From positions 1 through 64,000 of the forward strand of contig JAUIKM010000034.1 in NCBI GenBank assembly GCA_030430495.1: a stretch of 64,000 bases of DNA, written 5' to 3'. Each line of letters opens with the position of its first letter. The stretch's first letter is position 1. This DNA comes from a bacterium. GTDB taxonomy: Bacteria; Bacteroidota; Ignavibacteria; Kapaibacteriales; UBA7675. Shown piece by piece: positions 27,882 through 48,497 of the stretch. The notes under the pieces were generated by a model that made no database searches, had not been told where the DNA came from, and was given only the letters and a program-made list of their open reading frames with translations. The translations under genes were made by a program, and so were the position numbers.

Positions 27882-29276
27882 TTACCAGTCCCGCATCGGC
27901 GCGACGGCCCGATGGAAGCGCGTTCGGATGCGCTCGCCGTCGACGTGTTTCCCGTTCTCAACGACTGTTCCGCCGCGCCGAAAAACAGCTTTCAACATTC
28001 CCGAATCTCCCGCATACACCAGCGCGGACAGACGGCGCGCCGCCGGCAGACCGTACAAAACCGGTGCGGAGTCATCGATTTGCACCGCGTCGAAGGGCAT
28101 TCCCGGCTCAAGCCCGCCGCCCACCGTTCCGGCCGCAGGCATCCCGCCCGCAAGCGCCGCGCGCACAGCCCTTTCGCCGCTGTCGTCGCCACCCTTCAGA
28201 CAGAGTACGTTCCTGCGCCTGTCCGACATGCGCCGCCCGTAATCCAGCCAGCGCAACTCCTCCAGCGGGCTCAGCCCGACGTGGCTGTCGCTGCCGATGG
28301 CCCATGCGCCGCCCGCCGCGGCGTACTCGCGCAGGTTAAAAAAGCCGTCGCCCAGATTGCCCTCGGTGCTCGGGCACAGCACGGCCACCGCGCCGCTCTG
28401 CGCCAGACGCCGCGTTTCCGCCGCCGTCATATGCGTTGCGTGCACCAGCGAACAGTGCGATTTCAGCTCGACGTTGTTCAGCAGCCATTCCACGGGTCTT
28501 GCGCCCCAGATTTCGCTGCAGCGATCAATTTCGCGCACCTGCTCGGCCACGTGAATGTGCACGGGCCGCTCCGCCGCTCCGCGGCTGAAAACTTCCTTCA
28601 CTTCGGCGCGTGCGGCGGCGCGTAGCGAGTGCACGCCCAGCGCCGCCACCGCATCCGGCAGGCCGTTCAACGCCGCCGCCGAAGCGTCCAGCAATTTGTC
28701 GTAGTCGTCCAGCGATGAAGAGATGAAGCGCCGCTGGCGCGGCTGCGACGGCGCGTCAAAGTCGCCGTTGCGGTAGTACATCGGAGCAAGCGTCAACGCG
28801 ATGCCGCTCTGCTGCGCCGCCGCGGCCAGGCGCTGCGCCATTTCACCGCGATTGTCGTAGGGCCGCCCGTCGGCGTCGTTGTGCAGATAGTGAAACTCAA
28901 CCACGCGCGTATAGCCGCGCCGCAGCATTTCGCTGTAGAGCATGCAGGCGACGGCTTCCAGCTCGTCGGGACTGATTCTGAGCGCCAGACCGTACATCGT
29001 CTCGCGCCAGGACCAGAAGTCGTCATCCGCCGCGCCGGGCGCCAGGTGCTCGGCCAGCCCGGCCATGGCGTATTGAAAAGCATGCGAATGCGCATTGATA
29101 AAACCGGGCAGAATCCACCCCGTTATATGTTTTGGCGCCGAGCCCGGCGGCAGGTCCGCGGCATCCGCTGTAATTGTGTCGATAATTCCATCGGCGTCCA
29201 GGCCGACAAACGCCGGTTCAATCCATGCGCGGCCGTCCCACAGGGCCTCACATTTCAACCACTGCACGGCGCTCAT
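27882..29276 (-). CDS. hutF: Formimidoylglutamate deiminase
   Basis: 464 aa amidohydrolase-superfamily enzyme. Metal ligands H63-x-H65 (NAHSHAFQYAMAGLAE), HIHVAEQ and the SDSH Asp/His motif are present; FWSWRETMYG and CPSTEGNLGDG are HutF-specific. It hydrolyses N-formimino-L-glutamate to N-formyl-L-glutamate plus ammonia in the five-step histidine degradation route. The ATG overlaps the hutG TGA by 4 bp. HutH, HutU and HutI are not in the window. Confidence 0.95.
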   Translation of the reverse strand: MSAVQWLKCEALWDGRAWIEPAFVGLDADGIIDTITADAADLPPGSAPKHITGWILPGFINAHSHAFQYAMAGLAEHLAPGAADDDFWSWRETMYGLALRISPDELEAVACMLYSEMLRRGYTRVVEFHYLHNDADGRPYDNRGEMAQRLAAAAQQSGIALTLAPMYYRNGDFDAPSQPRQRRFISSSLDDYDKLLDASAAALNGLPDAVAALGVHSLRAAARAEVKEVFSRGAAERPVHIHVAEQVREIDRCSEIWGARPVEWLLNNVELKSHCSLVHATHMTAAETRRLAQSGAVAVLCPSTEGNLGDGFFNLREYAAAGGAWAIGSDSHVGLSPLEELRWLDYGRRMSDRRRNVLCLKGGDDSGERAVRAALAGGMPAAGTVGGGLEPGMPFDAVQIDDSAPVLYGLPAARRLSALVYAGDSGMLKAVFRRGGTVVENGKHVDGERIRTRFHRAVAPMRDW

Positions 29277-30082
29277 GGCAGCTCCTTCAACGCATTGATC
29301 AGAGCTTCAAAGACGTTGCGCAGACGCGCGCGCATCCGTGCGGCGCGCTCCTCGTCGTAGCGCGTCGTTGTTTCATTCATATACATGTGCTGGGTCATTT
29401 CAAGCTGCAGCGCGTGAACGCCTTCGTCCGGACGGCCAAAAGACCGCGTGATATAACCGCCCTTGAACGGCGTGTTGTGCGCCACCGGAAATTCCGCATC
29501 ACGGCGCAGATGCTCCAGCGCCGTGGCGCTCAGTATCGGCGCGGCGGACGTGCCGTCGGCGTCGCCCAGAATCAGGTCGGGAAAGGCTTCCGGCCGGATC
29601 GTCGGCACAAAGTGTTTAATCGAATGGCAGTCCCACAGCAGCACGTGTTTAAACCTGGTCCGCAGGCGTCGCAGCTCGGTCGCCAGACAATCGTGATAGG
29701 GCCTGAAGTACTTGTTTAATCTGCGGCCGCGTTCTGCGGCGTCGGGGAGCGCGCCGCTGTACAGCTCCTCGCCTGCAAAACTCGTCGTCGGCAGCACGTC
29801 GGTAATGATCCGGCCGTCGCCGTAGAGCGCCGCGCCGCCGGGATTGCGATTGAGGTCGACGACGTAGCGACTTAAACGCGCGCTGACGAGTTTCACACCC
29901 ATTTCGGGTGCAAAGTCGTAGAGATCGTGAACAAACCAGTCGGTATCGACCGGCTGCCGCACAAACTCCGGTTTAAACACTTCGTGCAATTCGGCGGGGA
30001 AATCCGTCCCGGCGTGCGGCACGCTCACGAGCAGCGGCTGCTCCTCCCCGCGCGCGTCGCGAACGGAATAAATTTCAGACAT
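29273..30082 (-). CDS. hutG: N-formylglutamate deformylase
   Basis: 269 aa. The ATG at 30082 (MSEIYSV) has GGGATG at good spacing; another ATG two codons upstream is too close to the SD. Family signatures: SVPHAGTDFPAEL, DTDWFVHDLYDF, RYVVDLNRNP, DCHSIKHFVP and NTPFKGGYITRSFG. It hydrolyses N-formylglutamate to glutamate and formate. It lies 12 bp after a formate-dehydrogenase-like molybdoenzyme and overlaps hutF, so the three form one operon in which product formate could be oxidised at once. Confidence 0.95.
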   Translation of the reverse strand: MSEIYSVRDARGEEQPLLVSVPHAGTDFPAELHEVFKPEFVRQPVDTDWFVHDLYDFAPEMGVKLVSARLSRYVVDLNRNPGGAALYGDGRIITDVLPTTSFAGEELYSGALPDAAERGRRLNKYFRPYHDCLATELRRLRTRFKHVLLWDCHSIKHFVPTIRPEAFPDLILGDADGTSAAPILSATALEHLRRDAEFPVAHNTPFKGGYITRSFGRPDEGVHALQLEMTQHMYMNETTTRYDEERAARMRARLRNVFEALINALKELP

Positions 30083-30094
30083 ACACATCCCGTA

Positions 30095-32290
30095 TTAAAC
30101 AACAGACTGCATCCGGCCGTCCGCGGCGTGGACGCTTATCCTGATATTTTTGAACGCCGGCGTGCGGCTGCGTTTATCCAGAGCCGCGGGCACGAGCACG
30201 TTGGCTTCCGGAAAGTACATCATGGCATTGCCCGCGGCCATGTTAAACGGCCGCACGCGCACATTGTGCATCTCACCGGCCCTGGACCGCACGTCGACCA
30301 GCGCGTTGTCCTGCAGCCCCATGCGCGCGACATCGACTTTGCTCATCATGATAATCCAGCGTTCGTGCTGGCCGCGCCAGGCGTCGTCTTCCTCGTAGAC
30401 AATAGTGTTAAACTGCCCTTCGCTGCGCACGGTCATCATGCGCAGCTCGTTGGACGCCGGCTTGTCTTCGGTGGGGATCGGCACAACTTTGAACAGGGCG
30501 CGTCCATCCGGCGTGTTAAACTTCGGCTCGTGGAAAGTGCGTCCGCCAATCTGGAATTCCTGCCCGGTCGCGTTAATCTCGCCGATCTTGCCGAAACCCG
30601 GCACGGTGCGCGCGATTGCATCGCGAATGGTGTCGTAGTTTTTGAACGCGGCAAAGTCGAGCGGCGCTGAAGCGCCCAGCACCTGCGTCGCCAGGTCGCA
30701 GATAATGTCTACCTCCGAGCGCACATTGTCCAGCCGCACAATGCCGCCGTCGCTCAGGCGCACAAAGTTAAACATCGACTCCTGCGTCGTGCGTTGCAGT
30801 TCTTCGTCGCGCGCCGCCACCGGCAGGATGACGACCTCGCCGTCCACACCGTACACATGCCCTTCGTTCAGAGTGGTATTGAGGAAGACTTTAAACGGCA
30901 CGTTGTTCAGGGACCGGTCGGCGTAATCGCGATCCGGATTGGATCCGAACAGGTTGCCGCCCAGCATAAACGCCACGTCGACGCGGCCCTCGGCGGCGGC
31001 GTCCATGCATGCCATCGTGTCCATGCCGGGCGTCTGCGGCAGTTTGACATCCAGTTCGCGCTCGATTGCGTCAAAAATCGCCTGTTTAAGTTGCGGCGTC
31101 ACGCCGACGGAACCGACGCCCTGCACGTTTGAGTGGCCGCGCAGCGGCAGCAGGCCGGCGTGCGGACGGCCGATCATGCCGCGCATCAGCGCCAGGTTAA
31201 CAATCATCTCGACATTGCCGACGCCGTGTTCGTGGTGCGTGATGCCCATCGCCCAGGTAAAGATAACGTTGCGGGCCCCGGCATAGACTTCGCCCACCTG
31301 TTCTATCTCTTGACGCGAAAGCCCCGAGGCGGACTCAATCTCTTCCCAGGTGACGGCGTTCAGTTCCTGCTCAAAGGCTTCATAACCTTGCGTGTGATGA
31401 CGAACAAAATTGGCATCGGCTTTCCCCCGCGCCAGCACGGTTTTGGCAACCCCCTTTAACACGGCCGTGTCGCTGCCGATATTCGGCTGCAAATAATGCG
31501 ATGCAATGTCGGAGCCGCCCGCCAGCATGGAGCGCAGGCTGCTCGGAACGTTAAAGCGCTGGAGGCCCGGCTCCAGTGCGGGGTTGATCACAACCACGTG
31601 GCCGCCGCGCTGTCGGCAGCGCAGCAGATCGCTCACAAAACGCGGGTGATTGGACGCGGGATTGGCTCCGATGACAAAGATGAGGTCGGCGTGTTGGACA
31701 TCTTCCAGCAGAACGGTGGCCGTGCCGCTGCCGATAGTCGACGCCAGGCCGACGCCCGAAGCCTGGTGGCAGTAGTACGAGCAGTTGTTAACATTATTGG
31801 TGCCGTAGAGACGCACAAAAAGGTGCAGCAGAAACGCCGCTTCGTTGGAGGAGCGCCCGGAGGCGTAGAAAAAACTGCGGTCGGGCGTGCATTCGCGCAG
31901 GCGCTCGGCTGTTAAACGCAGCATGTCGTCCCAACTGCGCACTTCAAATCGATCTGCGCCGGGCGCCTTGTAGAGCGGAGTGTTAAGTCGGCCGAGGCGC
32001 TCCAGCTCGCGCGGCCGCAATTCCCGCAGTTGCGCCAGCGTCAGCCTGTTAAATTCTTCGGCCGGAATGCCGTCCTGAATATCGGTCAACTGCGCCTGCA
32101 AACTTTTCTTGCAGATTTCGGGGAAGTGCCCGATTTCATTGCGCATGCCGCCGCGCTGGCCGCCCATGCCCAGAGCGCAGGTCTTGCAGGCATTATTGGA
32201 GTTGACCGCCCGCGTCAGGCGTCCTATCCCCACCTCGCGCGCCACGCGCAGAGAATAACCGATCGATTTCATGCCGCCGGGAGTACGCAT
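30095..32290 (-). CDS. Molybdopterin oxidoreductase, FdhF/YdeP family (formate dehydrogenase-like alpha subunit)
   Basis: 731 aa. The N-terminus carries a cysteine motif (ACKTCALGMGGQRGGM with C35, C38; then C60 in PEICKKS), fitting the reduced iron-sulfur site of this family. The Mo/W-bisPGD catalytic domain includes the probable metal ligand C174 followed by H175 (SYYCHQASGVG), GANPASNHPRF and GHSNVQGVGS. C-terminal dinucleotide-binding domain from ~600. FdhF is a proven formate dehydrogenase, but the YdeP branch has no firm substrate. Upstream of hutG in one operon and close to a complete Moco biosynthesis cluster. No FdhD seen. Confidence 0.88.
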   Translation of the reverse strand: MRTPGGMKSIGYSLRVAREVGIGRLTRAVNSNNACKTCALGMGGQRGGMRNEIGHFPEICKKSLQAQLTDIQDGIPAEEFNRLTLAQLRELRPRELERLGRLNTPLYKAPGADRFEVRSWDDMLRLTAERLRECTPDRSFFYASGRSSNEAAFLLHLFVRLYGTNNVNNCSYYCHQASGVGLASTIGSGTATVLLEDVQHADLIFVIGANPASNHPRFVSDLLRCRQRGGHVVVINPALEPGLQRFNVPSSLRSMLAGGSDIASHYLQPNIGSDTAVLKGVAKTVLARGKADANFVRHHTQGYEAFEQELNAVTWEEIESASGLSRQEIEQVGEVYAGARNVIFTWAMGITHHEHGVGNVEMIVNLALMRGMIGRPHAGLLPLRGHSNVQGVGSVGVTPQLKQAIFDAIERELDVKLPQTPGMDTMACMDAAAEGRVDVAFMLGGNLFGSNPDRDYADRSLNNVPFKVFLNTTLNEGHVYGVDGEVVILPVAARDEELQRTTQESMFNFVRLSDGGIVRLDNVRSEVDIICDLATQVLGASAPLDFAAFKNYDTIRDAIARTVPGFGKIGEINATGQEFQIGGRTFHEPKFNTPDGRALFKVVPIPTEDKPASNELRMMTVRSEGQFNTIVYEEDDAWRGQHERWIIMMSKVDVARMGLQDNALVDVRSRAGEMHNVRVRPFNMAAGNAMMYFPEANVLVPAALDKRSRTPAFKNIRISVHAADGRMQSVV

Positions 32291-32932: not shown

Positions 32933-33262
32933 CTACTTCTTGCCGGATTTGGGCGGCAGCGACATCACATAGGCATAACTCTCGGCCAGGGTCGCCGCCA
33001 GCAGGTCGATGTCGGTGTGCAGATGCGCCGGAACCAGCACGTAGTCGCGCATGACCGCGCCATATGACAGGAAAGGCCCCGCATCGTGCTTTGCGATAAA
33101 CTCGGCCCCGCGCTCCTTCGGCAGGCGAATCCCGATCTCGCCGGCCTTGTTTAACTGGGAAAACATATAACCGTTGGCGGAGGTGTACAGCATGGTTTTG
33201 CCCTTGCGCTCCACCTCGGGTACGCGTGCGATCATGGCGTCATAGACGTCGAGGTTTTTCAA
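32933..33262 (-). CDS. TfoX N-terminal-domain-like small protein
   Basis: 109 aa. Pattern VERKGKTMLYTSANGYMFSQL, GEIGIRLPKERGAEFIAKH, YGAVMRDYVLVPAHL and ESYAYVMSLPPK match a widespread family of ~110-aa cytosolic proteins usually described as TfoX/Sxy N-terminal-like or hypothetical; the basis is remembered family wording, not a search. No DNA-binding element is obvious. It lies alone between the moaE terminator and the molybdoenzyme promoter. Confidence 0.7.
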   Translation of the reverse strand: MKNLDVYDAMIARVPEVERKGKTMLYTSANGYMFSQLNKAGEIGIRLPKERGAEFIAKHDAGPFLSYGAVMRDYVLVPAHLHTDIDLLAATLAESYAYVMSLPPKSGKK

Positions 33263-33460: not shown

Positions 33461-33934
33461 TCAATGGTTGCAGCGCACCCAGGCCGAATCGCCGTCCTCG
33501 TATTCCTCTTTTTTCCAGATCGGCAGCTCGTGTTTGATCGCGTCGATAATCTCGCTGCAGGCGCTGAAACACTCGCTGCGATGCCGCGACGAGACAGCCA
33601 CCATAACCGCCGCTTCGCGCAGATCCAGATGTCCCGTGCGGTGCGCCACAAAAATGCGGTGCAGCTCGTGACGCGCACGCGCGCCGGTACAGATTCCGCG
33701 CAGCAGTTCGATGCACATCTCCGGATAGGCCTCGTAGTTGAGCGCCCGCACCACCCGCCCGTCGTTGACGTTGCGCACCGTGCCGAGAAAAATGTCGATG
33801 CCGCCGCTGCCGTCGCTGCGCACAAAGTCAATGCCCGCATTCACATCGATCGGAACAGGCTGAATGGCCAGATGCGTTGCCGCATCCGACCATTCGTGGT
33901 TTTGCTGTTTAACATTACTGTCGGGTCGTTGCAT
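33461..33934 (-). CDS. moaE: Molybdopterin synthase catalytic subunit
   Basis: 157 aa from the ATG at 33934 (MQRPDSN). MoaE signatures: IDIFLGTVRNVNDGRVVRALNYEAYPEM, IFVAHRTGHLDLREAAVMVAVSSRHR and the catalytic lysine region AIKHELPIWKKEEYEDGD. With MoaD it converts cyclic pyranopterin monophosphate to molybdopterin by adding two sulfurs. It starts 8 bp after the ABC permease and so is in that transcript, separated from moaD by the exporter genes. Confidence 0.95.
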   Translation of the reverse strand: MQRPDSNVKQQNHEWSDAATHLAIQPVPIDVNAGIDFVRSDGSGGIDIFLGTVRNVNDGRVVRALNYEAYPEMCIELLRGICTGARARHELHRIFVAHRTGHLDLREAAVMVAVSSRHRSECFSACSEIIDAIKHELPIWKKEEYEDGDSAWVRCNH

Positions 33935-33942
33935 GCTATTCC

Positions 33943-35232
33943 TCAGGCTTCCGCCGTCATCCATCCCCAGACTTTTTTCAGCGTCACTTTGCTGCCGGAA
34001 CTGAGAATGCGAACGCGGTAGATTTTGCCGGCCAGGCGCAGGATGCCGATCAAAACGGCAACGTTAACAAGGAGCGTCAGCCCGACCTGCCAGAACGGCA
34101 CGTCCGAAAGCGCCATGCGCGCCGGCATAACCATGATCGAAGAAATCGGCAGCATTGAACTGATCACCGCCAACTCGGACGAAGGATTCATGCTGATCGA
34201 CATGGCAATGAAAAATGGCACCATGATCAACATGACGATCGGCCACATGCCCTGCTGCGCGTCCTGATCATTGTCGAACATCGCGCCAAGTGCGGCGAAC
34301 ATCGACAGGAATGTCATGATGCCCATCAGGAAGTTAACAATGACGTAGGCCATCAATCCGAGGTTGATCGAAGCCATCACCCGGCTGACCTTGTCCGCAA
34401 TGTCGTCCGGCAAAACCGTCAGCTGGATCATCGACAGCATCAGGATGGGCGAGAACCAGATTAACATCTGCACCAGGCCCGTTATCGCCGTGCCGACCAC
34501 CTTGGCCGTCATTAACTCGCGCGGATTAACCGACGACAGCAGCACCTCGACAATTCGCGAGGTTTTCTCCTGCGTCACCGAGCGCAACAATTGCATGCCG
34601 TTAATAAACAGGGAGATGTACAGCAGGAAGGATACGACAAACGAGACAATGACGCCGCCGCCATCTTCTTCCGACACATCGGCGCCGGCGGAAACCTTGT
34701 AGCTGTCAGTTTTGGTGCCCCCCTGCGCAAACGCCACGTCCTCTTCAGCGATGCCGCGCCCTTCAAAGCGCAGTTCAATCAATGCTTTGTTCACACCCTC
34801 GGACACGCGACTTATGAGCACGAGGTTGTTCGGATTAGCCGAATAAAACTCGATGCGTTTTTTGGACCGCGCTTTGGCGGGAATATAAAACACACCGGCA
34901 ATCGAATCCTGCAGCATGCCGGCCCGGCTTTGCTCCACAAATGCTTCGAGCTGCGCTCTGTCCATCGTGCGGTAATCGATCGTCATGGCGCCGCTTTGCA
35001 CTTCTTCGTTCTCCCGCATCACCTCGCGCAGCAGGTCGTTGACAAAGGGCTCTTCCTCAACAATCACCACGTGGGCTTTGTCGACGACGTTCAGCACCTG
35101 CATCAGACCGATGACCAGGAAACCGCTCATAAACAGCAGCGGCATCAACACGGTCATGACGATGAAGGTCTTGTTTAACATCAAGGCCTTGAGCTCGCGC
35201 TTGATGATGGCAATTGTCCGTGCATTAAACAT
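33943..35232 (-). CDS. ABC-2 type transporter permease (NatB-like)
   Basis: 429 aa. One TM at ~20-45, a ~150-residue extracytoplasmic region (VVIVEEEPFVNDLL..), then five TM helices from ~205. QEKTSRIVEVLLSSVNPRELMTAKVVG is the coupling segment typical of ABC-2/NatB permeases. It pairs with the ATPase just upstream (8-bp overlap). NatAB exports Na+ in Bacillus; here the substrate cannot be read from sequence. Confidence 0.9.
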   Translation of the reverse strand: MFNARTIAIIKRELKALMLNKTFIVMTVLMPLLFMSGFLVIGLMQVLNVVDKAHVVIVEEEPFVNDLLREVMRENEEVQSGAMTIDYRTMDRAQLEAFVEQSRAGMLQDSIAGVFYIPAKARSKKRIEFYSANPNNLVLISRVSEGVNKALIELRFEGRGIAEEDVAFAQGGTKTDSYKVSAGADVSEEDGGGVIVSFVVSFLLYISLFINGMQLLRSVTQEKTSRIVEVLLSSVNPRELMTAKVVGTAITGLVQMLIWFSPILMLSMIQLTVLPDDIADKVSRVMASINLGLMAYVIVNFLMGIMTFLSMFAALGAMFDNDQDAQQGMWPIVMLIMVPFFIAMSISMNPSSELAVISSMLPISSIMVMPARMALSDVPFWQVGLTLLVNVAVLIGILRLAGKIYRVRILSSGSKVTLKKVWGWMTAEA

Positions 35233-36166
35233 GCGAGCCCTCCATCATGTTTGCTTCGCCGCTTTTGGCGTCGTCGCCGGCAACGCGGACAAATATTTCG
35301 TGCAGTGAGATTGTGTGCGCGTCAAAGCGCCTGACCACGATGTTGTTCTCCACCAACACTTTCAGCAGCGTCTGGATATCGTCCTGTTGTTTAACCAGAA
35401 TGCCCGTGGTATTGCCGAAGTCTTCCATCGTCTCCACAATCGGGTTGCCGCGCAGGAAACTCAGGTCGCCCTCGGCCTGCACCGTGACGTTGCGATTGCC
35501 GAACTTGCGGCGTATATCGCTCAGTGGGCCGTTTAACAACGCCTGGCCCTTGTGAATCAGGCAAATATTGTCGCACATCCTGTCGGCAAAATCCATCAGG
35601 TGCGTCGAGAAGATAATGACTTTGCCGCGACGTTTAAGGTCGAGAATCATGTCGCGAATAATCGAGGTGTTAACCGGATCGAGGCCCGAGAACGGCTCGT
35701 CGAGCACCACAAATTCCGGGTCGTGCAGAATGGTTGAAATAAACTGAACTTTCTGCTGATTGCCCTTGGAGAGGTCCGCCAGCTTGGATTTCATGCGGTC
35801 GCCCAGGTCGAACTGCTCCAGATATTCAACCGCCCGCCGTTTAATTTCGGGGCCTTTTTTACCTTTTAATTCGGCAAAAAAGAGGAGCGTATCCATCACC
35901 GTCATTTTCTGGTACAGACCGCGCTCTTCCGGCAGATAACCGACATTCGAGTTAAACTCCTCACCGGCCTTCACACCGCGCAGCAGGACTTCACCTGCGT
36001 CGGGTTTGTAAATATCCATCATCATGCGGATTGTGGTTGTTTTACCTGCTCCGTTCCGCCCCAGCAGACCAAAAATCACTCCTTCCGGAATCTCAAATGA
36101 TACGTCGTCCACCGCCGTAACACTACCGAATTGTTTCCTGAGATTGCGTACCTCAAGTGCATGCAT
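35225..36166 (-). CDS. ABC transporter ATP-binding protein (NatA-like)
   Basis: 313 aa. Walker A LLGRNGAGKTTTIR (~35-48), signature LSKGNQQKVQF (~134), Walker B and D-loop VVLDEPFSGLDP (~154-165), switch His in IIFSTHLMDFADRM. A ~90-residue C-terminal extension follows, as in NatA/CcmA/DrrA-type exporters. It powers the ABC-2 permease encoded downstream. Preceded by a 301-bp gap, so this pair plus moaE probably has its own promoter. Confidence 0.92.
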   Translation of the reverse strand: MHALEVRNLRKQFGSVTAVDDVSFEIPEGVIFGLLGRNGAGKTTTIRMMMDIYKPDAGEVLLRGVKAGEEFNSNVGYLPEERGLYQKMTVMDTLLFFAELKGKKGPEIKRRAVEYLEQFDLGDRMKSKLADLSKGNQQKVQFISTILHDPEFVVLDEPFSGLDPVNTSIIRDMILDLKRRGKVIIFSTHLMDFADRMCDNICLIHKGQALLNGPLSDIRRKFGNRNVTVQAEGDLSFLRGNPIVETMEDFGNTTGILVKQQDDIQTLLKVLVENNIVVRRFDAHTISLHEIFVRVAGDDAKSGEANMMEGSHV

Positions 36167-36753: not shown

Positions 36754-37980
36754 TCAGACCGGGATGACCTCGACGAGTTCGCCTTCAGTTATGCGCGCAC
36801 CGGCCGGCAGCAGCACGATGCCCGTCGCCTCGCTGACGCCGCTCAACATATGCGAACCCTGCTGCCGCAGCGCTTCCACACCAACAAGGCCATTGATTTC
36901 GCGCTGCGCCACGCGCATGAAAACCGCGCGACGCCCGGGATTGTGCAGGTCCTGTAAAACCGGAAACGACCGCGCGGCCGGAAGCGCCTTCCCGGCCGCA
37001 TGCAGCAGCAGGGGCCTGACGTACACGCTGAAACAGACATGCGCCGAAACCGGGTTGCCCGGCAGGCCGAACAAGAGCGTCGAGCCCCGCCGCGCAAACA
37101 ACAGAGGTTTGCCCGGCTTCTGATCGACGCGCCAGAAAATTGTCTCAAATCCGGCGGCCGCCGCACAGCTGCGCACCAGGTCGTGCGGGCCGACGGAAAC
37201 GCCGCCCGAAAACAGAATCAGATCGACTCCTGCCCCGAGCGCCTCGTCCAGCGCGGCGGCGTGCTCTTCCATCGTGTCCCCGGCCAGAAACTGTTTAACC
37301 GTCTCGCCCGAGGCTTCCGTTACAAGCGCGCGCAGCATCGGCCCGTTTGAATCTCGCAGCGCGCCCGGCGGCAGCGCGCCGGCCTGCCAGTGCGGCCGCA
37401 GCTCGGAACCGGTGATAATGATCGCCGCGCGCAGACGCCGGAAGGCCGCCGTCAACGCGTGCCCCTGGCCCGTCAGCACGCCGATGCGCGCCGCGTTGAT
37501 TGTCACGCCGCGACGCAGCAGTTCCACGCCGGCTGTAAACTCCTCGCCGCGCAGGCGGATATTTGCACCGCGTTTGCGGACGCGCAGGACGTACACCACT
37601 TCACCCTCGGCGCGACAGTCTTCCTGCGGAATCACCGTGTCGTATCCCGCCGGCGTCGGCGCGCCCGTGCTGATGCGCACAGCCGTATCGGCGGCGGACC
37701 GCCCCTCGTAGGGCGTCCCGGCGCGGCTCTCGCCGACCTGGCGAAGCGCGACCGATTCCGGCGCAGAGTCTTCGCCTGGATCGTCTACGAGAACGGCCAC
37801 GTCGTCCCAGCGCACGCACCAGCCGTCCATGGCGCTGTTGTCAAAGCGCGGCGAATCCTCGCGCGCCGGCACGTCTTCCGCCAGAACGCACCCATGCGCC
37901 GCTTCCGCCGCCAGCAGCACCGCCTGCGGCGCGGGGTAGTTGGCCCTCACCAGTTCGAGCGCCGTCGCCACGTCAATCAA
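36754..37980 (-). CDS. moeA: Molybdopterin molybdenumtransferase
   Basis: 408 aa from a TTG at 37980 (reads LIDVATALELV), preferred because GGGAGG lies 7 nt upstream and MoeA proteins start here; another TTG at 38010 has no SD. Motifs: PRFDNSAMDGWCVRW, DTAVRISTGAPTPAGYDTVIPQEDC, IITGSEL, LFSGGVSVGPHDLV, QKPGKPLLF and FGLPGNPVSAHVCF. It inserts molybdate into adenylylated molybdopterin. It overlaps the end of the phzF frame by 8 bp. Confidence 0.94.
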   Translation of the reverse strand: MIDVATALELVRANYPAPQAVLLAAEAAHGCVLAEDVPAREDSPRFDNSAMDGWCVRWDDVAVLVDDPGEDSAPESVALRQVGESRAGTPYEGRSAADTAVRISTGAPTPAGYDTVIPQEDCRAEGEVVYVLRVRKRGANIRLRGEEFTAGVELLRRGVTINAARIGVLTGQGHALTAAFRRLRAAIIITGSELRPHWQAGALPPGALRDSNGPMLRALVTEASGETVKQFLAGDTMEEHAAALDEALGAGVDLILFSGGVSVGPHDLVRSCAAAAGFETIFWRVDQKPGKPLLFARRGSTLLFGLPGNPVSAHVCFSVYVRPLLLHAAGKALPAARSFPVLQDLHNPGRRAVFMRVAQREINGLVGVEALRQQGSHMLSGVSEATGIVLLPAGARITEGELVEVIPV

Positions 37981-38820
37981 GGGAAAACCTCCCGAATGTA
38001 TCGGCCTCAAGCGTGCCGCGCAGAAAGGTGCGCGCGCGGCCGGCTATGCACACCCGCTCCCCGTCGACGCGCACGTGCAGCTCGCCGCCGCGCTCCGAAA
38101 TCTGACGCGCCGTCATCTCCGTCTTGCCGAGGCGCGCCGCCCAGTAGGGCGCGAGAATGCACTGCGCCGAGCCCGTCACCGGGTCCTCGTCGATACCCAC
38201 CGAAGGCGCAAACAAACGCACGACGTAGTCGCACGCCGCGCCGGAACGCGGATCATTGCCCGCCGCCGTCACGCACACCGCGCGCGGGTAATAGCCGGAT
38301 AACTTTTGCATGTCGGGTTTGAGCGAGAGCACGGTCGCGGGTGAGTCAAACAGCGCAAGGTTGTAGCTCAGATGATCGTAAAATTCCAGTGGACGAGCGC
38401 CCAGCACGGAATCCAGTCCCTCAGGCAGTTCGGCTTTTGTCGGCGCAAACGCCGGAAAATCCAGCTCCAGGCGGCCGTCTTCCAGCGCCGTCACGGTCAA
38501 CTCGCCGCCGCGGCTCCGGAAGCGCAGGTGCGGCATCGTCATGCCGTGCATCGTTCGCAGCACGTGCGCCGTCGCCAGCGTGGCGTGACCGCACAGGTCC
38601 ACCTCGGTTTCCGGCGTAAACCAGCGCAGCCGCCACGGCTCCGCGTTCAGTTCCACAAAAGCGGTTTCCGACTAAACTCGGCGGCAATGGACTGCATCTG
38701 CTCCTCGCTCAGTTCCTGTTTAAGCACACAGACGGCGGCCGGGTTGCCGGCCAGACCTTCGCCGACAAACGCATCGACGATCGCGGCGGGAATGAGGGCG
38801 CTGCCCTTGGCGGATGCCAT
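37973..38820 (-). pseudogene. PhzF/DapF-fold isomerase-family protein, single frameshift near 38672
   Basis: The downstream frame (37973-38656 and a few codons upstream) gives SETAFVELNAEPWRLRWFTP, DLCGHATLATAHV and DEDPVTGSAQC, the PhzF core. The upstream frame from an ATG at 38820 (MASAKGSALIPAAIVDAFVG, GNPAAVCVLKQEL, MQSIAAEF) is the PhzF N-terminus but stops shortly after. The join EF|SETAF needs one base added or two removed at 38672-38673; in the downstream frame a TAG sits there. The ATG overlaps the moaCB TAA (TAATG). It is either a real broken gene or a single-base sequencing error. Function of an intact protein: isomerase-like, substrate unknown. Confidence 0.82.
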
Positions 38821-39776
38821 TATTTCTCTCCCTGATTTTCTTGTTTGTCATTGTGTTTAATGCCGGAACTGTGGCCCAGGTCGTGCATCATCGGAATGGC
38901 GTGCAACAAACCGGGAAACAGCGCCCGCACGCTTTCGGCCGCACCGGCCGTGCTGCCGGGCAGCGAGACGATCAAGGTGCGGCCGCGCAAGCCGCTGAGC
39001 TGACGCGAAAGCATGGCAAACGGCGTGCGGTCAAATCCGTAGCTGCGCATCTGCTCGGTTATTCCCGGTGCGGTTCTGTCGATCACCTGTGAAATCGCTT
39101 CCGGTGTGACGTCGCGCGCGCCGAAACCCGTGCCGCCGGCCGTAAAGATAAAATCCATCGAGTGATCGTCGGCCAGCTCGCGGAGTCTGCCGGCAATCTG
39201 GGCGGCCTCGTCCGGCAGTATATCGTACGTGGCGACGTCGACGCCCTGTTTAACAAGGAATTCACTGACGGCGCGGCCGGCTTTGTCCTGGCGCGTCCCG
39301 GCATGCGTCGAGTCGGAGATCACCAGCACGGCGGCGCGCGGCGCGCTGTGAAAACGATCGGCAAAGTCGCTCTTGCCGCCGCGTTTCTCTACGAGGCGGC
39401 TGGCGCCGATTGTTAAATTCTCGTCCAGCGGTTTTAACATGTCGTACATGTTGAGCGCGGCGGCCTGCACCGCCGTCATGGCTTCCATCTCGACGCCGGT
39501 TTTCCAGACGGCGCGCACGGTTGCTTCTATGCGAATCTCCGTCTCGCCGAGTTCAAAACTCAGGTCGACGTAGTCCAGCGGCATCGGGTGGCAGAAGGTG
39601 ATCCAGTCCGATGTGCGTTTGGCGGCCTGAATGCCGGCGGCGCGCGCCGTGGCGCGCACGTCGCCCTTGGGCACCGTGCCGTTTTTAACGCGTTCAATCA
39701 CCGCCGCCGCGGCGATAATACTGCCCTGCGCCACCGCCGTGCGCAGGCTCGATTTTTTATGTGAGATGTCGATCAT
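38820..39776 (-). CDS. moaCB: Bifunctional MoaC-MoaB/MogA fusion (Moco biosynthesis)
   Basis: 318 aa. Residues 1-~145 are MoaC (cyclic pyranopterin monophosphate synthase: MIDISHKKSSLRTA, WITFCHPMPLDYVDLSF, KTGVEMEAMTAVQAAALNMYD). Residues ~155-305 are a MoaB/MogA-type molybdopterin adenylyltransferase (AAVLVISDSTHAGTRQDKAG, FIFTAGGTGFGARDVTPEA, GRTLIVSLPGS). The first step after MoaA and the adenylylation before MoeA are thus in one chain. The fusion is known from Bacteroidota. The stop overlaps the phzF ATG. Confidence 0.95.
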   Translation of the reverse strand: MIDISHKKSSLRTAVAQGSIIAAAAVIERVKNGTVPKGDVRATARAAGIQAAKRTSDWITFCHPMPLDYVDLSFELGETEIRIEATVRAVWKTGVEMEAMTAVQAAALNMYDMLKPLDENLTIGASRLVEKRGGKSDFADRFHSAPRAAVLVISDSTHAGTRQDKAGRAVSEFLVKQGVDVATYDILPDEAAQIAGRLRELADDHSMDFIFTAGGTGFGARDVTPEAISQVIDRTAPGITEQMRSYGFDRTPFAMLSRQLSGLRGRTLIVSLPGSTAGAAESVRALFPGLLHAIPMMHDLGHSSGIKHNDKQENQGEK

Positions 39777-39813: not shown

Positions 39814-41097
39814 TCAGTTGTGCGTTTTGCCGCGCGCACCGCTGAATCTGGCGTGCAGGAAGAGCAGCAGGCCGCCCGCCGCCAGCGCAATCATCAGGTT
39901 TTTGGTCAGCAGGCTCAGCAGACCGATTAGACAGGCGACAAATATTTCGAACTTCGAGTCCAGGCGTCGCACAAAGGCGATCATACGCGCCGCGTCGAAC
40001 AGCAGCAGCGCCGCCAGTAAAACAACCGGAATCGCCAGCAGCGCCGCGCGCAGCGGGTCCACCAGCGCCGTCACGACAAAAATTGCGCCGATAATTATCG
40101 CCGCGCCGCCCGTGCGCGCGCCGAACTGCGCGTGGGCCGCCATGCCTCCCGCTCCGTGACAAACAGGAAAACCGCCCAGAAAACCAATCCCGATATTTAC
40201 CAGTCCGATCGACTGCGCCAGCGTCGTCGGGTTGACGCGCCCGCAGCGCTCAGGCCAAAGATCGTGCGCCGTTTCGTCCGCCGCGTAGACGGCGTTGCCC
40301 AGCGTCAGCGGCAGTTGCGTGACGATGAGCAGCAGGACGGCTTCAAACGTCTGCGCCGCACGCCAACTGAAAAGTTGCATCATCTCAACGATGCTGCCCG
40401 TCAGCTCGTCCGTCAGTCGTTCCAACGATGTCGTCGGGCCGCCGAACGCATTTATTCCGCTCTGCCCCAGGGGCAGCTCCGCGCCGTTCATCAAGGCGAT
40501 AATCATCGCGCCGCCGATCAGAATCGGCGTCAGTTTAAATCCGCGTTTAAACTGCACATACCAGATCAGCAGAACGATCGCGGGCAGCAGCGCTGTGTTT
40601 AACCACCAGTTCGGCGGCTCGCTCTGCAGCAGCCAGCCATTTTCGTGCGCCAGGTCCCAGGCTTTGACGGCCAGCAGCAGGCCAATGCCGAGCTGAACGC
40701 CGCGGATTAACGCCGGACGCATGAGTCTGTTTAATCGCCCGATCAATCCGCTGCGCACCAGCAGGACAAACAGCAGGCCGTAGATCATGGCCGCCGCGGC
40801 CAGAACCACGGGCATGTATTCATTCACCAAGGTCAACACGGCCATCGCCTTGAGCGGCTGCACGGAAATCGGAACGCGAAACCACAATCCAACTCCGATG
40901 TAAACAAGTCCCCAGAGCAGAAGCACCTGCGCCGCAAAAAAGCCGCTCGTCATCGCCAGCGCCGCCAGGATCGGCAGGCTCACGCCCAGATCGCCGAATG
41001 CGCCGCTCCACTCGCCCCAGCCAAAGCTGTTGCGCGGCAGATTTTGTTTAACTTCGCGCCGAGCGCCGGCTTTGTATGTTTGTGGAAACCACTTCAC
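39814..41097 (-). CDS. MOT1-type molybdate (sulfate) transporter
   Basis: 427 aa, about ten TM helices. Both MOT1 hallmarks are present: WSGAFGDLGVSLPIL (~30-44) and FPVCHGAGGMAAHAQFGARTGGAA (~310-335), with no STAS domain. MOT1 proteins are high-affinity molybdate importers in plants and algae, with bacterial homologues. The position inside a Moco cluster supports molybdate as substrate. GTG start at 41097 lies one base after the moaA TGA, so translation is probably coupled. No modABC genes in the window. Confidence 0.88.
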   Translation of the reverse strand: MKWFPQTYKAGARREVKQNLPRNSFGWGEWSGAFGDLGVSLPILAALAMTSGFFAAQVLLLWGLVYIGVGLWFRVPISVQPLKAMAVLTLVNEYMPVVLAAAAMIYGLLFVLLVRSGLIGRLNRLMRPALIRGVQLGIGLLLAVKAWDLAHENGWLLQSEPPNWWLNTALLPAIVLLIWYVQFKRGFKLTPILIGGAMIIALMNGAELPLGQSGINAFGGPTTSLERLTDELTGSIVEMMQLFSWRAAQTFEAVLLLIVTQLPLTLGNAVYAADETAHDLWPERCGRVNPTTLAQSIGLVNIGIGFLGGFPVCHGAGGMAAHAQFGARTGGAAIIIGAIFVVTALVDPLRAALLAIPVVLLAALLLFDAARMIAFVRRLDSKFEIFVACLIGLLSLLTKNLMIALAAGGLLLFLHARFSGARGKTHN

Positions 41098-42358: not shown

Positions 42359-42967
42359 TCAGTCTATATTGTGTTCGCGCATGTAGGCTTTCACGCGCTC
42401 CAGGTCGTCCGGCGTGTTGACGTTCATGAACTCTTCCGCCGGTATGTGCGGCGCTATCTCGCGCAGGTCGACCACTTCCACGCCGCAGCGCTCCGCCAGA
42501 ACCTGCACTTTGAGCTGACCGGATCGCACGCCGGCTTCCAGGCAGTCGGCGCTGCGACGCGGCCAGAGGCAGATCAGATTCTCCAGACCCGCCGCTGAGC
42601 GGATAACAAGAGGGCCTTCCTTCCGGCGGCGTTTGTAGAGAAGCATAAGCACTTCAAAGCGCAGCAGCGGCACGTCCACGGGCAGGAACAGGACAAAAGG
42701 TCGCAGCGAGGCGTTCAGAATGGCGTGAATGCCGCCCGCCGGCCCCCGGTCGTCGTTTATGTCCGGCATGTGGTGGTTGACCTTGTCCACCGGATAGGGA
42801 TCTTCCGCCCCGACGGAAATCAGCACCTCGTCCGTCAACCGCAGGCCCAGATCGATGGCGCGCCGCAGCAGCGTGCGCCCCTTGAGTTCCACCAGGCCTT
42901 TGTCCCGGCCGAACCTGCGACTGTGGCCGCCGGCCAGAACGGAAACGGTAATGTCGCTGTAGCGCAT
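42359..42967 (-). CDS. mobA: Molybdenum cofactor guanylyltransferase
   Basis: 202 aa from the ATG at 42967 (MRYSDITVSV) with AGGGA upstream; the extra 42 codons of open frame are ignored. Nucleotidyltransferase motif LAGGHSRRFGRDKGLV, Mg-binding PVDVPLLRFEV and EFMNVNTPDDL. It converts Mo-MPT to the MGD form used by the DMSO-reductase-type molybdoenzyme encoded at 30-32 kb. 213 bp upstream of moaA. Confidence 0.93.
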   Translation of the reverse strand: MRYSDITVSVLAGGHSRRFGRDKGLVELKGRTLLRRAIDLGLRLTDEVLISVGAEDPYPVDKVNHHMPDINDDRGPAGGIHAILNASLRPFVLFLPVDVPLLRFEVLMLLYKRRRKEGPLVIRSAAGLENLICLWPRRSADCLEAGVRSGQLKVQVLAERCGVEVVDLREIAPHIPAEEFMNVNTPDDLERVKAYMREHNID

Positions 42968-43037
42968 GTGTTTTCCCTGCCGCAATTGATCGGGTGGTTT
43001 CGGCTTGCCGACGGACCGCGCCGCTTTAAAATGTGAC

Positions 43038-43064
43038 GGGCCCGCTTGCGGTGCAAACGGACCC
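43038..43064 (-). terminator. Possible terminator after the cytochrome c gene
   Basis: Minus-strand hairpin GGGTCCG/CGGGCCC (7 bp, one wobble, 13-nt loop) followed by GTCACATTTT. 86 bp after the stop at 43150. The U-tract is weak. Confidence 0.4.
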
Positions 43065-43149
43065 GAGACAGCTTTGGAATCAGGGCGACGCATGGGCTCT
43101 TGCCTGCCGCTCCATCGACCTGTTCCGACTGGAGTTTGATTTGATGTCT

Positions 43150-44180: not shown

Positions 44181-44861
44181 TTAATACTCGCCGGAGACGC
44201 GGCGCAGGCCGGATTCGTCCAGAACTTCAATTCCCACGTCGCTGCGTTTAATGAGGGAGCGGCGCTCAAAGTCGCGCAGCAGTTTAACGAGAGTGCCGTC
44301 GGCGCAGGTGGAAAGCGCACTGATATCGCTGACCGCCAGACGCGGCTCGACGGTGTAGTCGCTCAGGAGCGCTTTGCGCAGTTTTAACAGCGCCCAGGCG
44401 ACGCGGCGGCGCGCCGACTTGGTGGAGATGCTGACGAGTTTGGATTCGACGTCTTCGATGCTGCGGCTCAGCATGCCGAAAATTGTTAACTGCAGCGAAG
44501 GGTTCTGCTGTAAAAACTCTCTGAATTCTTCGCGTTCAATGCGCAGGGCATCAACCGGGCCGATGGCCACGGCGCCGCTCGAATACTGCGCAAACAACAT
44601 CACATCGCGAATGCCAAGGAACTCGCCGCGGTTGGACAGTCCCACGATGCACTCGCCGCCGCGGCAGCTGCGGATTTGTTTAACAACGCCGTTTTCCAGC
44701 AGATAGATGGCTTCGCCCGCATCGTTTTCGCGGTACAGCGCCGCACCGGGTTCAAAACGCACCGACTCGGAACCGTCCAGCAACAGAGTCAGCCCCTGGC
44801 GCAGGCGCGCCGCGTAGCTGAGTCCGTCTGTTAACGCCCTATGTTCGACAGCCATTGTCAT
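44181..44861 (-). CDS. Crp/Fnr-family transcriptional regulator (no FNR cysteines)
   Basis: 226 aa from the ATG at 44861 (MTMAVEHRAL). Cyclic-nucleotide-binding beta-barrel at ~25-125 (EPGAALYRENDAGEAIYLLENGVVKQI, GLSNRGEFLGIRDVML), dimer helix, and a C-terminal winged helix at ~160-220. The recognition helix (CADGTLVKLLRDFERR) lacks the E-x3-R pair of FNR and CRP, so its target half-site is probably not TGA. No N-terminal cysteine motif. A 10-bp inverted repeat lies 66 bp upstream of the start. Confidence 0.88.
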   Translation of the reverse strand: MTMAVEHRALTDGLSYAARLRQGLTLLLDGSESVRFEPGAALYRENDAGEAIYLLENGVVKQIRSCRGGECIVGLSNRGEFLGIRDVMLFAQYSSGAVAIGPVDALRIEREEFREFLQQNPSLQLTIFGMLSRSIEDVESKLVSISTKSARRRVAWALLKLRKALLSDYTVEPRLAVSDISALSTCADGTLVKLLRDFERRSLIKRSDVGIEVLDESGLRRVSGEY

Positions 44862-44926
44862 GATGCGGGTCGGCAAATGAATTCGTCTGGTTTGACGACA
44901 AAAATGCCGACAGCCGCCGCTTTAAA

Positions 44927-44953
44927 CAATGACAAATATCACGTTTGTCATTG
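44927..44953. promoter_or_regulatory. Perfect 10-bp inverted repeat between two Crp/Fnr genes
   Basis: CAATGACAAA, 7-nt spacer TATCACG, then TTTGTCATTG. Lies upstream of the 44181-44861 regulator and 59 bp after the stop of the 45012-45722 regulator. It could be an autoregulatory operator or a U-poor terminator. Confidence 0.5.
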
Positions 44954-45011
44954 ACGGCTTGCCCGGTCGCGTGGCGACAGAACTATCAATAAACACAGTA
45001 TTAACCGGCGA

Positions 45012-45722
45012 TCAGTCGACGACGTTGGCCAGGCGGATCAAGGCCTGTTTGTCCGTAATGGCGATCTTTTTACCGTTGAGCTGCACAAGGCCTTCCTTGC
45101 GGAATTCGGAGAGCAGGCGTATGCAGCTCTCGGTCGCCGTGCCGACGATGTTGGCCAGGTCCTCGCGCGTCAATTGAATATCCAGCGTAGCGCCGTCGTC
45201 GGCCGTGCCGAAGGTGGAATTGAGCATCAGCAGCGTCTGGGCCAGGCGCTCGCGGACGGGCAGTTGCGAGAGTTCAACCATACGCTCTTCGGCCTCGCGA
45301 AGGTCGTGCGTAAGCAGCTGCATAAGGCGGTTCATCAGCTGGTGATCTTCCGCGAGTATTTGCAGGAAGGTGGCCTGCGGTATGTGGCAGAGCACGGTTT
45401 CCTCCAGTGCTTCGGCCGTGGCGGAATACAGCTCGCCGCTGAGCAGAGCGCGATAACCGAGGACGTCGCCGTTTTTGGCCAGGCGCACGATGTGCTCGCG
45501 ACCGGATTCGCTCGACTTGTAGATTTTGACTTTACCTTTGAAGATGCAGAAGAGGCCGGAAGGGCGGTTGCCTTCGTAGAAAATGATTTGCCCGCGCTTG
45601 TATGAGTTGGTATTTTTTGAGCCGTCGATCTGCAGCACGCCCGAATGGCTCAAATCGCAGAGAATGGAGTTCTCGCGCGAGCCGCAGGTTTCGCACTGTG
45701 GTGACTCGAACCGCTTTTTCAT
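45012..45722 (-). CDS. FNR-like Crp/Fnr regulator with N-terminal cysteines
   Basis: 236 aa from the ATG at 45722 (MKKRFESPQC). N-terminal C10-x2-C13-x8-C22 plus C112 resembles the four-cysteine set of oxygen-sensing FNR with altered spacing. Effector-barrel fold at ~40-125 (RGQIIFYEGNRPSGLFCIFKGKVKIYK), C-terminal helix-turn-helix LTREDLANIVGTATESCIRLLSEF with the E-x3-R contacts used by FNR to read TGA half-sites. Encoded next to FNR-like boxes before ccoI; a likely activator of the cbb3 genes (inference). Confidence 0.9.
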   Translation of the reverse strand: MKKRFESPQCETCGSRENSILCDLSHSGVLQIDGSKNTNSYKRGQIIFYEGNRPSGLFCIFKGKVKIYKSSESGREHIVRLAKNGDVLGYRALLSGELYSATAEALEETVLCHIPQATFLQILAEDHQLMNRLMQLLTHDLREAEERMVELSQLPVRERLAQTLLMLNSTFGTADDGATLDIQLTREDLANIVGTATESCIRLLSEFRKEGLVQLNGKKIAITDKQALIRLANVVD

Positions 45723-45859
45723 TGCTGTACCTTTTGCCTTTCCGACGAGCGCAGTCGACACCGACCGCATTCAAATCGCTTTAAGCGATTTTTTCAACTA
45801 CCGTCGGCGCAAAAATACAAAATGCCCGGACCGCATTCCAGCTAATCGGACGCATATGC

Positions 45860-45873
45860 CTGACTTTTATCAG
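45860..45873. promoter_or_regulatory. FNR-like half-palindrome upstream of ccoI, site 1
   Basis: CTGAC-TTTT-ATCAG, a near-symmetric site sharing the TTTT spacer with the box before the cytochrome c gene. Its centre is exactly 22 bp from site 2. Confidence 0.4.
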
Positions 45874-45881
45874 GTTTTGGC

Positions 45882-45895
45882 TTGATTTGCATCAT
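45882..45895. promoter_or_regulatory. FNR box upstream of ccoI, site 2
   Basis: TTGAT-TTGC-ATCAT matches the FNR consensus TTGAT-N4-ATCAA at 9 of 10 positions. It is 121 bp before the ccoI ATG, in the 294-bp divergent region shared with the FNR-like gene. Confidence 0.6.
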
Positions 45896-46016
45896 TTAGA
45901 GCACTGACGTCCGGTCGTAATTTGCCGTTAAATCAACGAGTTCAGGCCGTAAAACTTGCATCCGTGCCGTCGATTCCCCGACGACACAACAGGCACACAC
46001 ACTTCTGCGGAACGCC

Positions 46017-48497
46017 ATGAACAGCCCGGCAACATCTTCCGTCGCAGCCAAAGAGCAATGCGCGCACTGCGGACTCGACTGCCCGGACAACGGGATTGCG
46101 CTCGACGGCGCGGCTTTCTGCTGCGAGGGTTGCCGGATCGTCTACCAGATGCTGGCTGAAAACGACCTGGACTCGTATTATTGTGCCGCGCCCACCGACG
46201 GCAGCCCCGGCAACCGCGCCGCCGCCGAGATCGACCCCGGCGATTTCGACTACCTGGAAGACGAGAGTTTGCTGGCGCGCCTGCTGGATTTCCGCAGCGA
46301 CACGCTGGCAATCGCCCGCCTGAACATCCCCGGCATACACTGCGCTTCCTGCGTGTGGCTACTTGAGAACCTGCACAAACTCGATCCCGGCGTCCTGCAG
46401 TCGGAAGTCAATTTCATGCGCAAGGAGTTGCTCCTGCGTTTTGATCCGCGGCGCAGCAGCCTGCGCGCGGTCGTTGAGTTGCTGCACAAAATCGCCTATC
46501 CGCCGGACATCCGGCTGGCGGCGGCACGCAGCGCGGAGCCTCCCAAAACGCCGCGCATCGAATGGCTGCGCCTGGGCGTGGCAGGTTTCTGTTTCGGCAA
46601 CATTATGCTCTTCAGTTTCCCCGAGTATCTGGCGGGCGCGCAGGGTCTGAGCGGCGAATTCGGGCAACTGTTTGCCTGGCTCAATCTGGCTTTGTCCCTG
46701 CCGGTGCTGCTGTTCAGCGCCGCGCCGTTCTTCCGCTCGGCGCTGACGGGTCTGCGCGGCGGCAACGTCAACATCGATGTTCCGATCGCCCTCGGCATCG
46801 TCGTGCTGTTTTTGCGCAGTCTGGTAGACATCGCAGTACTGGGCGCGCCCGGATTCCTCGACTCCATGGCCGCGCTGGTTTTCCTCCTGCTGCTGGGACG
46901 CATGTTTCAGCGCAAAACCTACGACCGCCTGGCCTTTGACCGCGACTATGCCGCCTACTTCCCTCTTTCGGTGCGCATAGAAACGACGGAGGGGCGGACA
47001 ACGACGCGCAGCCTGGACCAACTGGAGGTAGGCGATATCATCGTGGTGCGCAACGGCGAGCTGATCCCGGCGGACGCCCTGCTGCTCTCCGACTCGGCAG
47101 CGCTGGACTACAGCTTTGTGACGGGCGAATCAGCGGCGCAGCACAGCGCCAAAAACGATCTGGTTTACGCCGGCGGACGCCTGACGGGCAGTCCGGCGCG
47201 TTTTCAAACGATCAAACCGGTCTCGCAGAGTTATCTGACGGACCTCTGGAACAACGGCATTTTCGCGGACGAAAAACACGCCGGCTTCAGCGATCTGACG
47301 AATCGATTCAGCAAGTACTTCACTTTTGGCGTTGTTGTCGTCGCGGCGGCGGCGGGACTGTACTGGGCGCTGGCCGCGGGCGACTGGAGCGCCGCGGCGG
47401 ACGCGGTGACGGCCAGCCTGATCGTGGCCTGCCCCTGCGCGCTGGCGCTGGCCGCGCCTTTCACCTTCGGCACCTCGCTGGGTCTGCTGGCGCGGCGCGG
47501 ACTCTACGTTAAAAACTCGGAGACGCTGGAACTGCTGGCGGCGACTTCCGCGATCGTGTTTGACAAAACCGGCACGCTGACCAGCGCCGAGCCGGCGCAG
47601 TTGCGCTACCACGGCCTGGAGTGCACGGTCCAGGAAGCGGCGATGACGCTGAACACGGCACAGGCCTCCAACCACCCGCTCAGCCGCGGCATCGTCAGTG
47701 TCCTGCGCGAGCAGGTGGATGCGGACGACCTGAGCGCCGTCGGCGACGCAATTATCGACGAGGTTGCGGGCAAGGGTCTGCGCGCCGATTTCTACAGCGG
47801 CCACCAGGTCCTGATCGGCGCGGCGGAGTGGCTGCGCGAACAGGGCGCCGACATGAGCGGCGAATTGCCGACGCGCGAGTCGGCCGCGCACATAGCGGTG
47901 GACGGCCGCTACATGGGTGCGTTTGTACAGAAAAACTACCTGCGCCGCGGCATCCGCGCCATGCTGGAGAAGCTGCGCGGCGCATTTAACATTTACCTGC
48001 TCTCCGGCGATACGCCGCAGCAGGAAGCCGACTTTGTCAATATGTTAAGCGGCGCTTTCGGCGGCAAACAACACCTGCGCTTCGGGCGCTCGCCGCAGGA
48101 CAAGCTGGAATTCCTGGACGAACTCGAACGCGGCGGCGCAACCACGCTGATGCTCGGCGACGGATTAAACGACGCGGGCGCGCTGCGCCGCAGCACCGTC
48201 GGCGTCGCCGTGGTGGAAAACAACGCCGCCTTTACGCCGGCCAGCGACGCCATTCTGGAAGCGCGCGCTCTGGCCGGGCTGCCGCAGTTCCTGCAGTACG
48301 CGCGCCGCGGACTGGGAATTGTCAAACTCAGTATACTTCTATCGCTCCTGTACAACGTGGTCGGTTTAACACTGGCGGTGCAGGGGCTGCTCTCTCCGCT
48401 TGTGAGCGCGGTGCTCATGCCGCTCAGCTCCATTACGGTGATTGTCTTCAGCACGCTCAGCGCGCGCCTTCTGGCTCCGCGGGAGGTTAAACAGTGA
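46017..48497 (+). CDS. ccoI: Copper-translocating P-type ATPase for cbb3 assembly
   Basis: 826 aa. N-terminal Cys-rich zinc-ribbon-like part (CAHCGLDCPDNG..FCCEGC, ~15-40), HMA domain with GIHCASCVWLLENL (~105-170), eight TM helices, TGES-type actuator motif FVTGESAAQHSAK, CPC metal site ACPCALALAAP, phosphorylation site DKTGTLTS, nucleotide motif NHPLSRG and hinge GDGLNDAGALRRS. The N-terminal double-cysteine module is CcoI/FixI-specific. It exports Cu+ for the cbb3 oxidase. First gene of the cco cluster; its TGA overlaps the ccoS GTG. Confidence 0.95.
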   Translation: MNSPATSSVAAKEQCAHCGLDCPDNGIALDGAAFCCEGCRIVYQMLAENDLDSYYCAAPTDGSPGNRAAAEIDPGDFDYLEDESLLARLLDFRSDTLAIARLNIPGIHCASCVWLLENLHKLDPGVLQSEVNFMRKELLLRFDPRRSSLRAVVELLHKIAYPPDIRLAAARSAEPPKTPRIEWLRLGVAGFCFGNIMLFSFPEYLAGAQGLSGEFGQLFAWLNLALSLPVLLFSAAPFFRSALTGLRGGNVNIDVPIALGIVVLFLRSLVDIAVLGAPGFLDSMAALVFLLLLGRMFQRKTYDRLAFDRDYAAYFPLSVRIETTEGRTTTRSLDQLEVGDIIVVRNGELIPADALLLSDSAALDYSFVTGESAAQHSAKNDLVYAGGRLTGSPARFQTIKPVSQSYLTDLWNNGIFADEKHAGFSDLTNRFSKYFTFGVVVVAAAAGLYWALAAGDWSAAADAVTASLIVACPCALALAAPFTFGTSLGLLARRGLYVKNSETLELLAATSAIVFDKTGTLTSAEPAQLRYHGLECTVQEAAMTLNTAQASNHPLSRGIVSVLREQVDADDLSAVGDAIIDEVAGKGLRADFYSGHQVLIGAAEWLREQGADMSGELPTRESAAHIAVDGRYMGAFVQKNYLRRGIRAMLEKLRGAFNIYLLSGDTPQQEADFVNMLSGAFGGKQHLRFGRSPQDKLEFLDELERGGATTLMLGDGLNDAGALRRSTVGVAVVENNAAFTPASDAILEARALAGLPQFLQYARRGLGIVKLSILLSLLYNVVGLTLAVQGLLSPLVSAVLMPLSSITVIVFSTLSARLLAPREVKQ

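Follow-up and report, generated by a model that had tools for sequence, protein, structure and literature searches.

The window, a stretch of 64,000 nucleotides from a bacterium of the order Kapaibacteriales (UBA7675; GenBank assembly GCA_030430495.1, contig JAUIKM010000034.1), contains a gene for an FdhF/YdeP-family molybdoenzyme followed on the same strand by hutG and hutF, and this arrangement is genuine and conserved in one family. According to its sequence, the enzyme is a member of a separate FdhF/YdeP clade with hundreds of members in at least six phyla. The best single explanation is that it could be an FdhD-independent, cytoplasmic, single-subunit Mo-bis-MGD formate oxidase removing the formate released by HutG, and we put the chance that this is correct at about even. 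The hut operon gives the first concrete substrate hypothesis for the clade. Three features open to testing set this clade off within the loosely named FdhF/YdeP family: it occurs without FdhD, its Fe-S motif is altered and it retains the Lys44 equivalent. The missing FdhD and the changed Fe-S site are the most interesting part of the case as well as the main doubt about it.

The molybdoenzyme, hutG and hutF in the window

The three open reading frames of the original prediction were all found at their predicted positions, on the minus strand (Table 1). The molybdoenzyme scores 686.6 bits against TIGR01701 (FdhF/YdeP), above the curated cut-off of 582.15, and belongs to this subfamily. HutF scores 475.7 bits against TIGR02022 (cut-off 413.05) and 343 bits, in a near full-length alignment, against the solved P. 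aeruginosa protein 3mdu, with which it shares the metal-site motifs HSHAFQ, HIHxAEQ, HATH and GSDSHV. HutG strongly matches PF05013, and its 249.1 bits against TIGR02017 lie slightly below the equivalog cut-off of 278.75. On these sequence matches, the family assignment is firm for the molybdoenzyme and HutF, and good for HutG. The 12-bp gap predicted between the enzyme and hutG applies to the second ATG of hutG, the first being only 6 bp from the enzyme stop codon; the predicted 4-bp overlap of hutG and hutF was confirmed as a shared ATGA.

Table 1. Features of the molybdoenzyme-hutG-hutF block and of the upstream molybdenum cofactor (Moco) cluster in the window
Feature	Position	Strand	Evidence or remark
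hutF, formimidoylglutamate deiminase	27882..29276	-	TIGR02022 476 bits; match to P. aeruginosa HutF 3mdu
hutG, N-formylglutamate deformylase	29273..30088	-	PF05013 222 bits; TIGR02017 249 bits; match to 2q7s
FdhF/YdeP-family molybdoenzyme, 731 aa	30095..32290	-	TIGR01701; tree; active-site columns; AlphaFold model
109-aa ORF between moaE and the enzyme	32933..33262	-	no family match
moaE, molybdopterin synthase large subunit	33461..33964	-	PF02391 119.5 bits
ABC transporter permease (33943-35232) and ATPase (35225-36166)	33943..36166	-	inside the Moco cluster
moeA	36754..38010	-	
fused moaC/moaB	38820..39776	-	NF002947 363 bits
MOT1-type molybdate transporter	39814..41097	-	PF16983 114 bits
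moaA	41099..42226	-	TIGR02666 298 bits, match from residue 46; the actual start is probably close to 42091
Moco riboswitch upstream of moaA	42140..42277	-	RF01055 76 bits
mobA-like	42359..43093	-	TIGR02665 94.8 bits, below cut-off

A search with PF00384 found only one other match in the window genome, NuoG (L024, G000:C69, 7764-9740), which is not a catalytic molybdoenzyme, and no DMSO-reductase-family oxidoreductase besides these two. As far as this family is concerned, the window enzyme therefore seems to be the only one that the Moco cluster supplies. The genes near the enzyme include none for an electron-acceptor subunit. Upstream of the Moco cluster, the window also encodes a cation-transporting P-type ATPase and two regulators of the CRP/FNR type (44181-48497).

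Conservation of the block in the family

Together with the window genome (G000), two genomes of the same family, G001 and G002, represent all three known genera of the family. The order enzyme-hutG-hutF behind the Moco cluster is kept in 3/3 genera, with enzymes that are 65% (G002) and about 59% (G001, where the gene is split across two contigs) identical to the window copy. The 4-bp hutG/hutF overlap is present in all three genomes, and the gap between the enzyme and hutG measures 6 bp in the window genome, about 20 bp in G001 and about 100 bp in G002. G002 also shows a Moco riboswitch upstream of moaA (72 bits; L017 2956-3082) and the ABC transporter pair, which is absent in G001. The window genome and G002 further share the downstream order nuoA-nuoB-cox, so this pair is not independent and by itself is weak evidence. 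In G001, however, both flanks have changed, yet mobA-moaA-MOT1-moaC/B-moeA-moaE-enzyme-hutG-hutF is kept, with moaE again directly upstream of the enzyme, as a near-continuous operon from mobA to hutF that continues to a class V PLP enzyme; the genes outside it are different. Retention of the block in G002 and in the rearranged surroundings of G001 argues that the co-location is more than chance.

Across the order, hutF was found in 3/123 genomes, and the same three carry the full-length clade enzyme. Another genome of the order (G109) has a 41% partial match at a contig end, whose enzyme type is not settled, and in order-mates of a different family there is only a relative at 33%, without hutG.

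The genes hutH, hutU and hutI are present on other contigs in all three genomes of the family, which completes the hut pathway; hutF is single-copy in the window genome, and none of the three has a formate-tetrahydrofolate ligase. As in Pseudomonas-type hut operons, HutF and HutG provide the formylglutamate branch, but in the window genome hutH, hutU and hutI lie elsewhere and hutGF stands behind the molybdoenzyme and Moco genes.

Active site, Fe-S site and predicted structure

The alignment shows that C174-H175 and R384 are invariant in 78/78 clade members; in E. coli FDH-H we take their counterparts to be Sec140-His141 and Arg333. K62, equivalent to Lys44 of FDH-H and replaced by Asn in E. 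coli YdeP, is likewise invariant in 78/78. The active-site arrangement supports the original prediction, since the residues that mark metal-dependent formate dehydrogenases, Sec/Cys-His and Arg at the Mo site and Lys between the Mo cofactor and the Fe-S cluster, are all kept. Among six substitutions of Lys44 in FDH-H, only Arg was active, at about 7% (PMC12176258). Second-shell residues differ from FDH-H, with Cys-His-Gln-Ala instead of Sec-His-Gly-Pro and His386 instead of Gln335. The Fe-S motif keeps C35, C38 and C60, and the third cysteine position is Met42 in 78/78 members; the four-cysteine [4Fe-4S] motif CxxCxxxC...C is therefore absent from the clade, as it is from YdeP.

The AlphaFold model of the enzyme (mean pLDDT 87, weak at residues 36-41 and 389-400) shows a DMSO-reductase-family fold. 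It superposes on E. coli FDH-H (FdhF, 1fdo/1fdi) with a Z of 38.5 over 638 residues at 2.9 A. The two proteins are about 24% identical, and the window enzyme has Cys for Sec, three Fe-S cysteines instead of four and a genome without FdhD. Structures of NapA reach the same Z as those of formate dehydrogenase. A NapA-type function is nevertheless less likely, because the sequence, whose best PDB matches are formate dehydrogenases, and the Cys-His pair favour formate dehydrogenase.

Distribution of the clade and its relation to YdeP-type enzymes

At least 346 relatives were found when 84,980 species genomes were scanned with the N-terminal motif of the clade. The 80 best of these are about 51-59% identical and belong to Planctomycetota, Bacteroidota, Fidelibacterota, Nitrospinota, KSB1, Hydrogenedentota, Alphaproteobacteria and Gammaproteobacteria. 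Cultured strains with a clade member include Devosia rhodophyticola, Cellvibrio sp. OA-2007 and Thalassolituus maritimus. In the tree, a branch with an SH-aLRT of 90 has the 28 clade sequences on one side; the YdeP-type sequences (100) and a further group, marked by a CDGC motif (100), are separate from them, and the clade was not recovered together with E. coli YdeP.

The original prediction described the family as having no firm function, which does not hold for its P. putida and M. extorquens members, genetically tied to formate oxidation: deletions of PP_0256-0257 and PP_4596 reduce formate tolerance in P. putida, the PP_0256-fdhD pair complements, and M. extorquens Fdh4A takes part in formate oxidation (PMC10308882). 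These proteins are described as YdeP-like (PMC10308882), and on that description they apparently fall in a sister clade to the window enzyme. YdeP-type enzymes (E. coli YdeP, PP_0256, PP_4596 and Fdh4A) resemble the window enzyme in matching TIGR01701, in their similar length, in being soluble and in having Cys-His, Arg and three N-terminal cysteines. They differ in clade, with 33-39% identity, in the Asn at the Lys44 position where the window enzyme has Lys, in the adjacent fdhD, which accompanies them always in Devosiaceae and adjoins PP_0256 in P. putida, and in having no link to hut.

FdhD and the clade

A search for FdhD (PF02634) gave no match in the window genome and was negative throughout the carrier genomes (0/28), of which some are complete chromosomes, whereas it was positive in 8/14 control genomes. 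Devosiaceae show the relation within a single group. Among 101 genomes, 63 have the clade enzyme and 32 have FdhD; YdeP-type paralogs occur in 15 genomes and all (15/15) have fdhD 78-147 bp away, whereas the clade members are not beside fdhD. FdhD is present in 7/63 genomes with the clade, all seven of which also have a YdeP-type enzyme, versus 25/38 genomes without it (odds ratio 0.065, p 2e-8, not corrected for ancestry). On this distribution, the clade is independent of FdhD, and the mutual exclusion, uncorrected for ancestry, fits a replacement of FdhD-dependent formate dehydrogenases. In E. coli FdhF, sulfuration by FdhD is essential for activity (PMC10609526); in R. capsulatus formate dehydrogenase the sulfido ligand is essential, yet can be added in vitro without a chaperone (PMC12140954).

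A cysteine-desulfurase-like neighbour as a substitute for FdhD was considered and kept as a lead only, because such proteins are 20-26% alike and mostly on the opposite strand. The clade gene has a class V PLP enzyme in its vicinity at three of the best 80 loci and in G001, where the gene after hutF (L019 2929-4140) is SufS/EgtE-like, far below cut-offs.

Proposed role and alternative explanations

HutG would free formate at the end of histidine breakdown and the molybdoenzyme would remove it. Formate could bind and be oxidized to CO2 at a Mo ligated by Cys174, with His175 and Arg384 next to it; electrons would leave through the altered Fe-S site (Cys35, Cys38 and Cys60) to an acceptor. Maturation of the Mo centre would need no FdhD, the site staying unsulfurated or receiving its sulfur elsewhere, and the upstream cluster, under its Moco riboswitch, may provide the cofactor.

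The original prediction that the operon enzyme oxidizes the formate of HutG stands in part. It is favoured by the block in 3/3 genera, the co-occurrence with hutF, the full hut pathway with a single hutF, the absence of formate-tetrahydrofolate ligase and of any DMSO-reductase-family oxidoreductase other than NuoG, the invariant formate dehydrogenase residues, the best PDB sequence matches, the related enzymes that act on formate in vivo and the tendency of the clade and FdhD to exclude each other in Devosiaceae. It is doubted mainly because FdhD is missing and one Fe-S cysteine is replaced, and it is weakened by the NapA fold tie and the lack of a nearby acceptor subunit. The expected adjacency to hutG/hutF, constant within the family, fails outside it: neither gene was found beside any of the best 80 of the at least 346 relatives, from other phyla (flanks of up to 10 kb, many contigs being shorter). 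The hut linkage is therefore lineage-specific, and histidine breakdown is not the general role of the clade.

The main rival, to which we give roughly one chance in three, holds that a protein with this fold and a comparable active site carries out another two-electron reaction, on another small carboxylate or an oxyanion. FdhD would then be unneeded because no Mo-sulfido ligand is needed, and the enzyme would share an operon with hutGF because each serves amino-acid catabolism. The 0/28 result for FdhD, the Devosiaceae arrangement in which only the YdeP-type paralogs lie close to fdhD, the second-shell differences from FDH-H and the diverse neighbours elsewhere (aldehyde and alcohol dehydrogenases, xanthine-dehydrogenase-like genes) all agree with it, but all four catalytic residues of formate dehydrogenases are present and no theme among the neighbours points to another substrate. 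It is rather unlikely that the genes share a location without sharing a function, hutGF having landed behind the Moco operon in the family ancestor and the order having persisted. Linkage in one family only, and the long synteny of the window genome and G002, which includes the unrelated nuo and cox genes, would be expected in that case; the changed flanks of G001, the 4-bp overlap in all three genomes and the short enzyme-hutG gap in the window genome and G001 speak against it.

Beyond the family, a formate dehydrogenase clade that spans phyla, matures without FdhD (its Mo site unsulfurated or otherwise sulfurated) and replaces FdhD-dependent enzymes in many bacteria is a tentative proposal, somewhat more doubtful than the role proposed for the window enzyme. 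If the enzyme oxidizes formate, it would be a large exception to the rule that formate dehydrogenases need sulfido-Mo made by FdhD; if it does not, formate metabolism would be wrongly annotated in many genomes.

Gene neighbourhoods of the relatives

Derivation of a substrate from the neighbours of the best 80 relatives was rejected, the neighbours being diverse and lacking a common theme: 57 near same-strand neighbours include four aldehyde dehydrogenases, three Zn-alcohol dehydrogenases and two MoaA. At six Flavobacteriales/Bacteroidetes loci (L042, L043, L045, L050, L051 and L053) the clade enzyme is beside xanthine-dehydrogenase-like genes, judged by eye from sequence starts, and at some of these moaA also adjoins it. 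A Rhodococcus opacus plasmid (L128 3707-6816) carries a gene for a YdeP-type enzyme that overlaps the folP start; folE is also close by, which may indicate a folate link.
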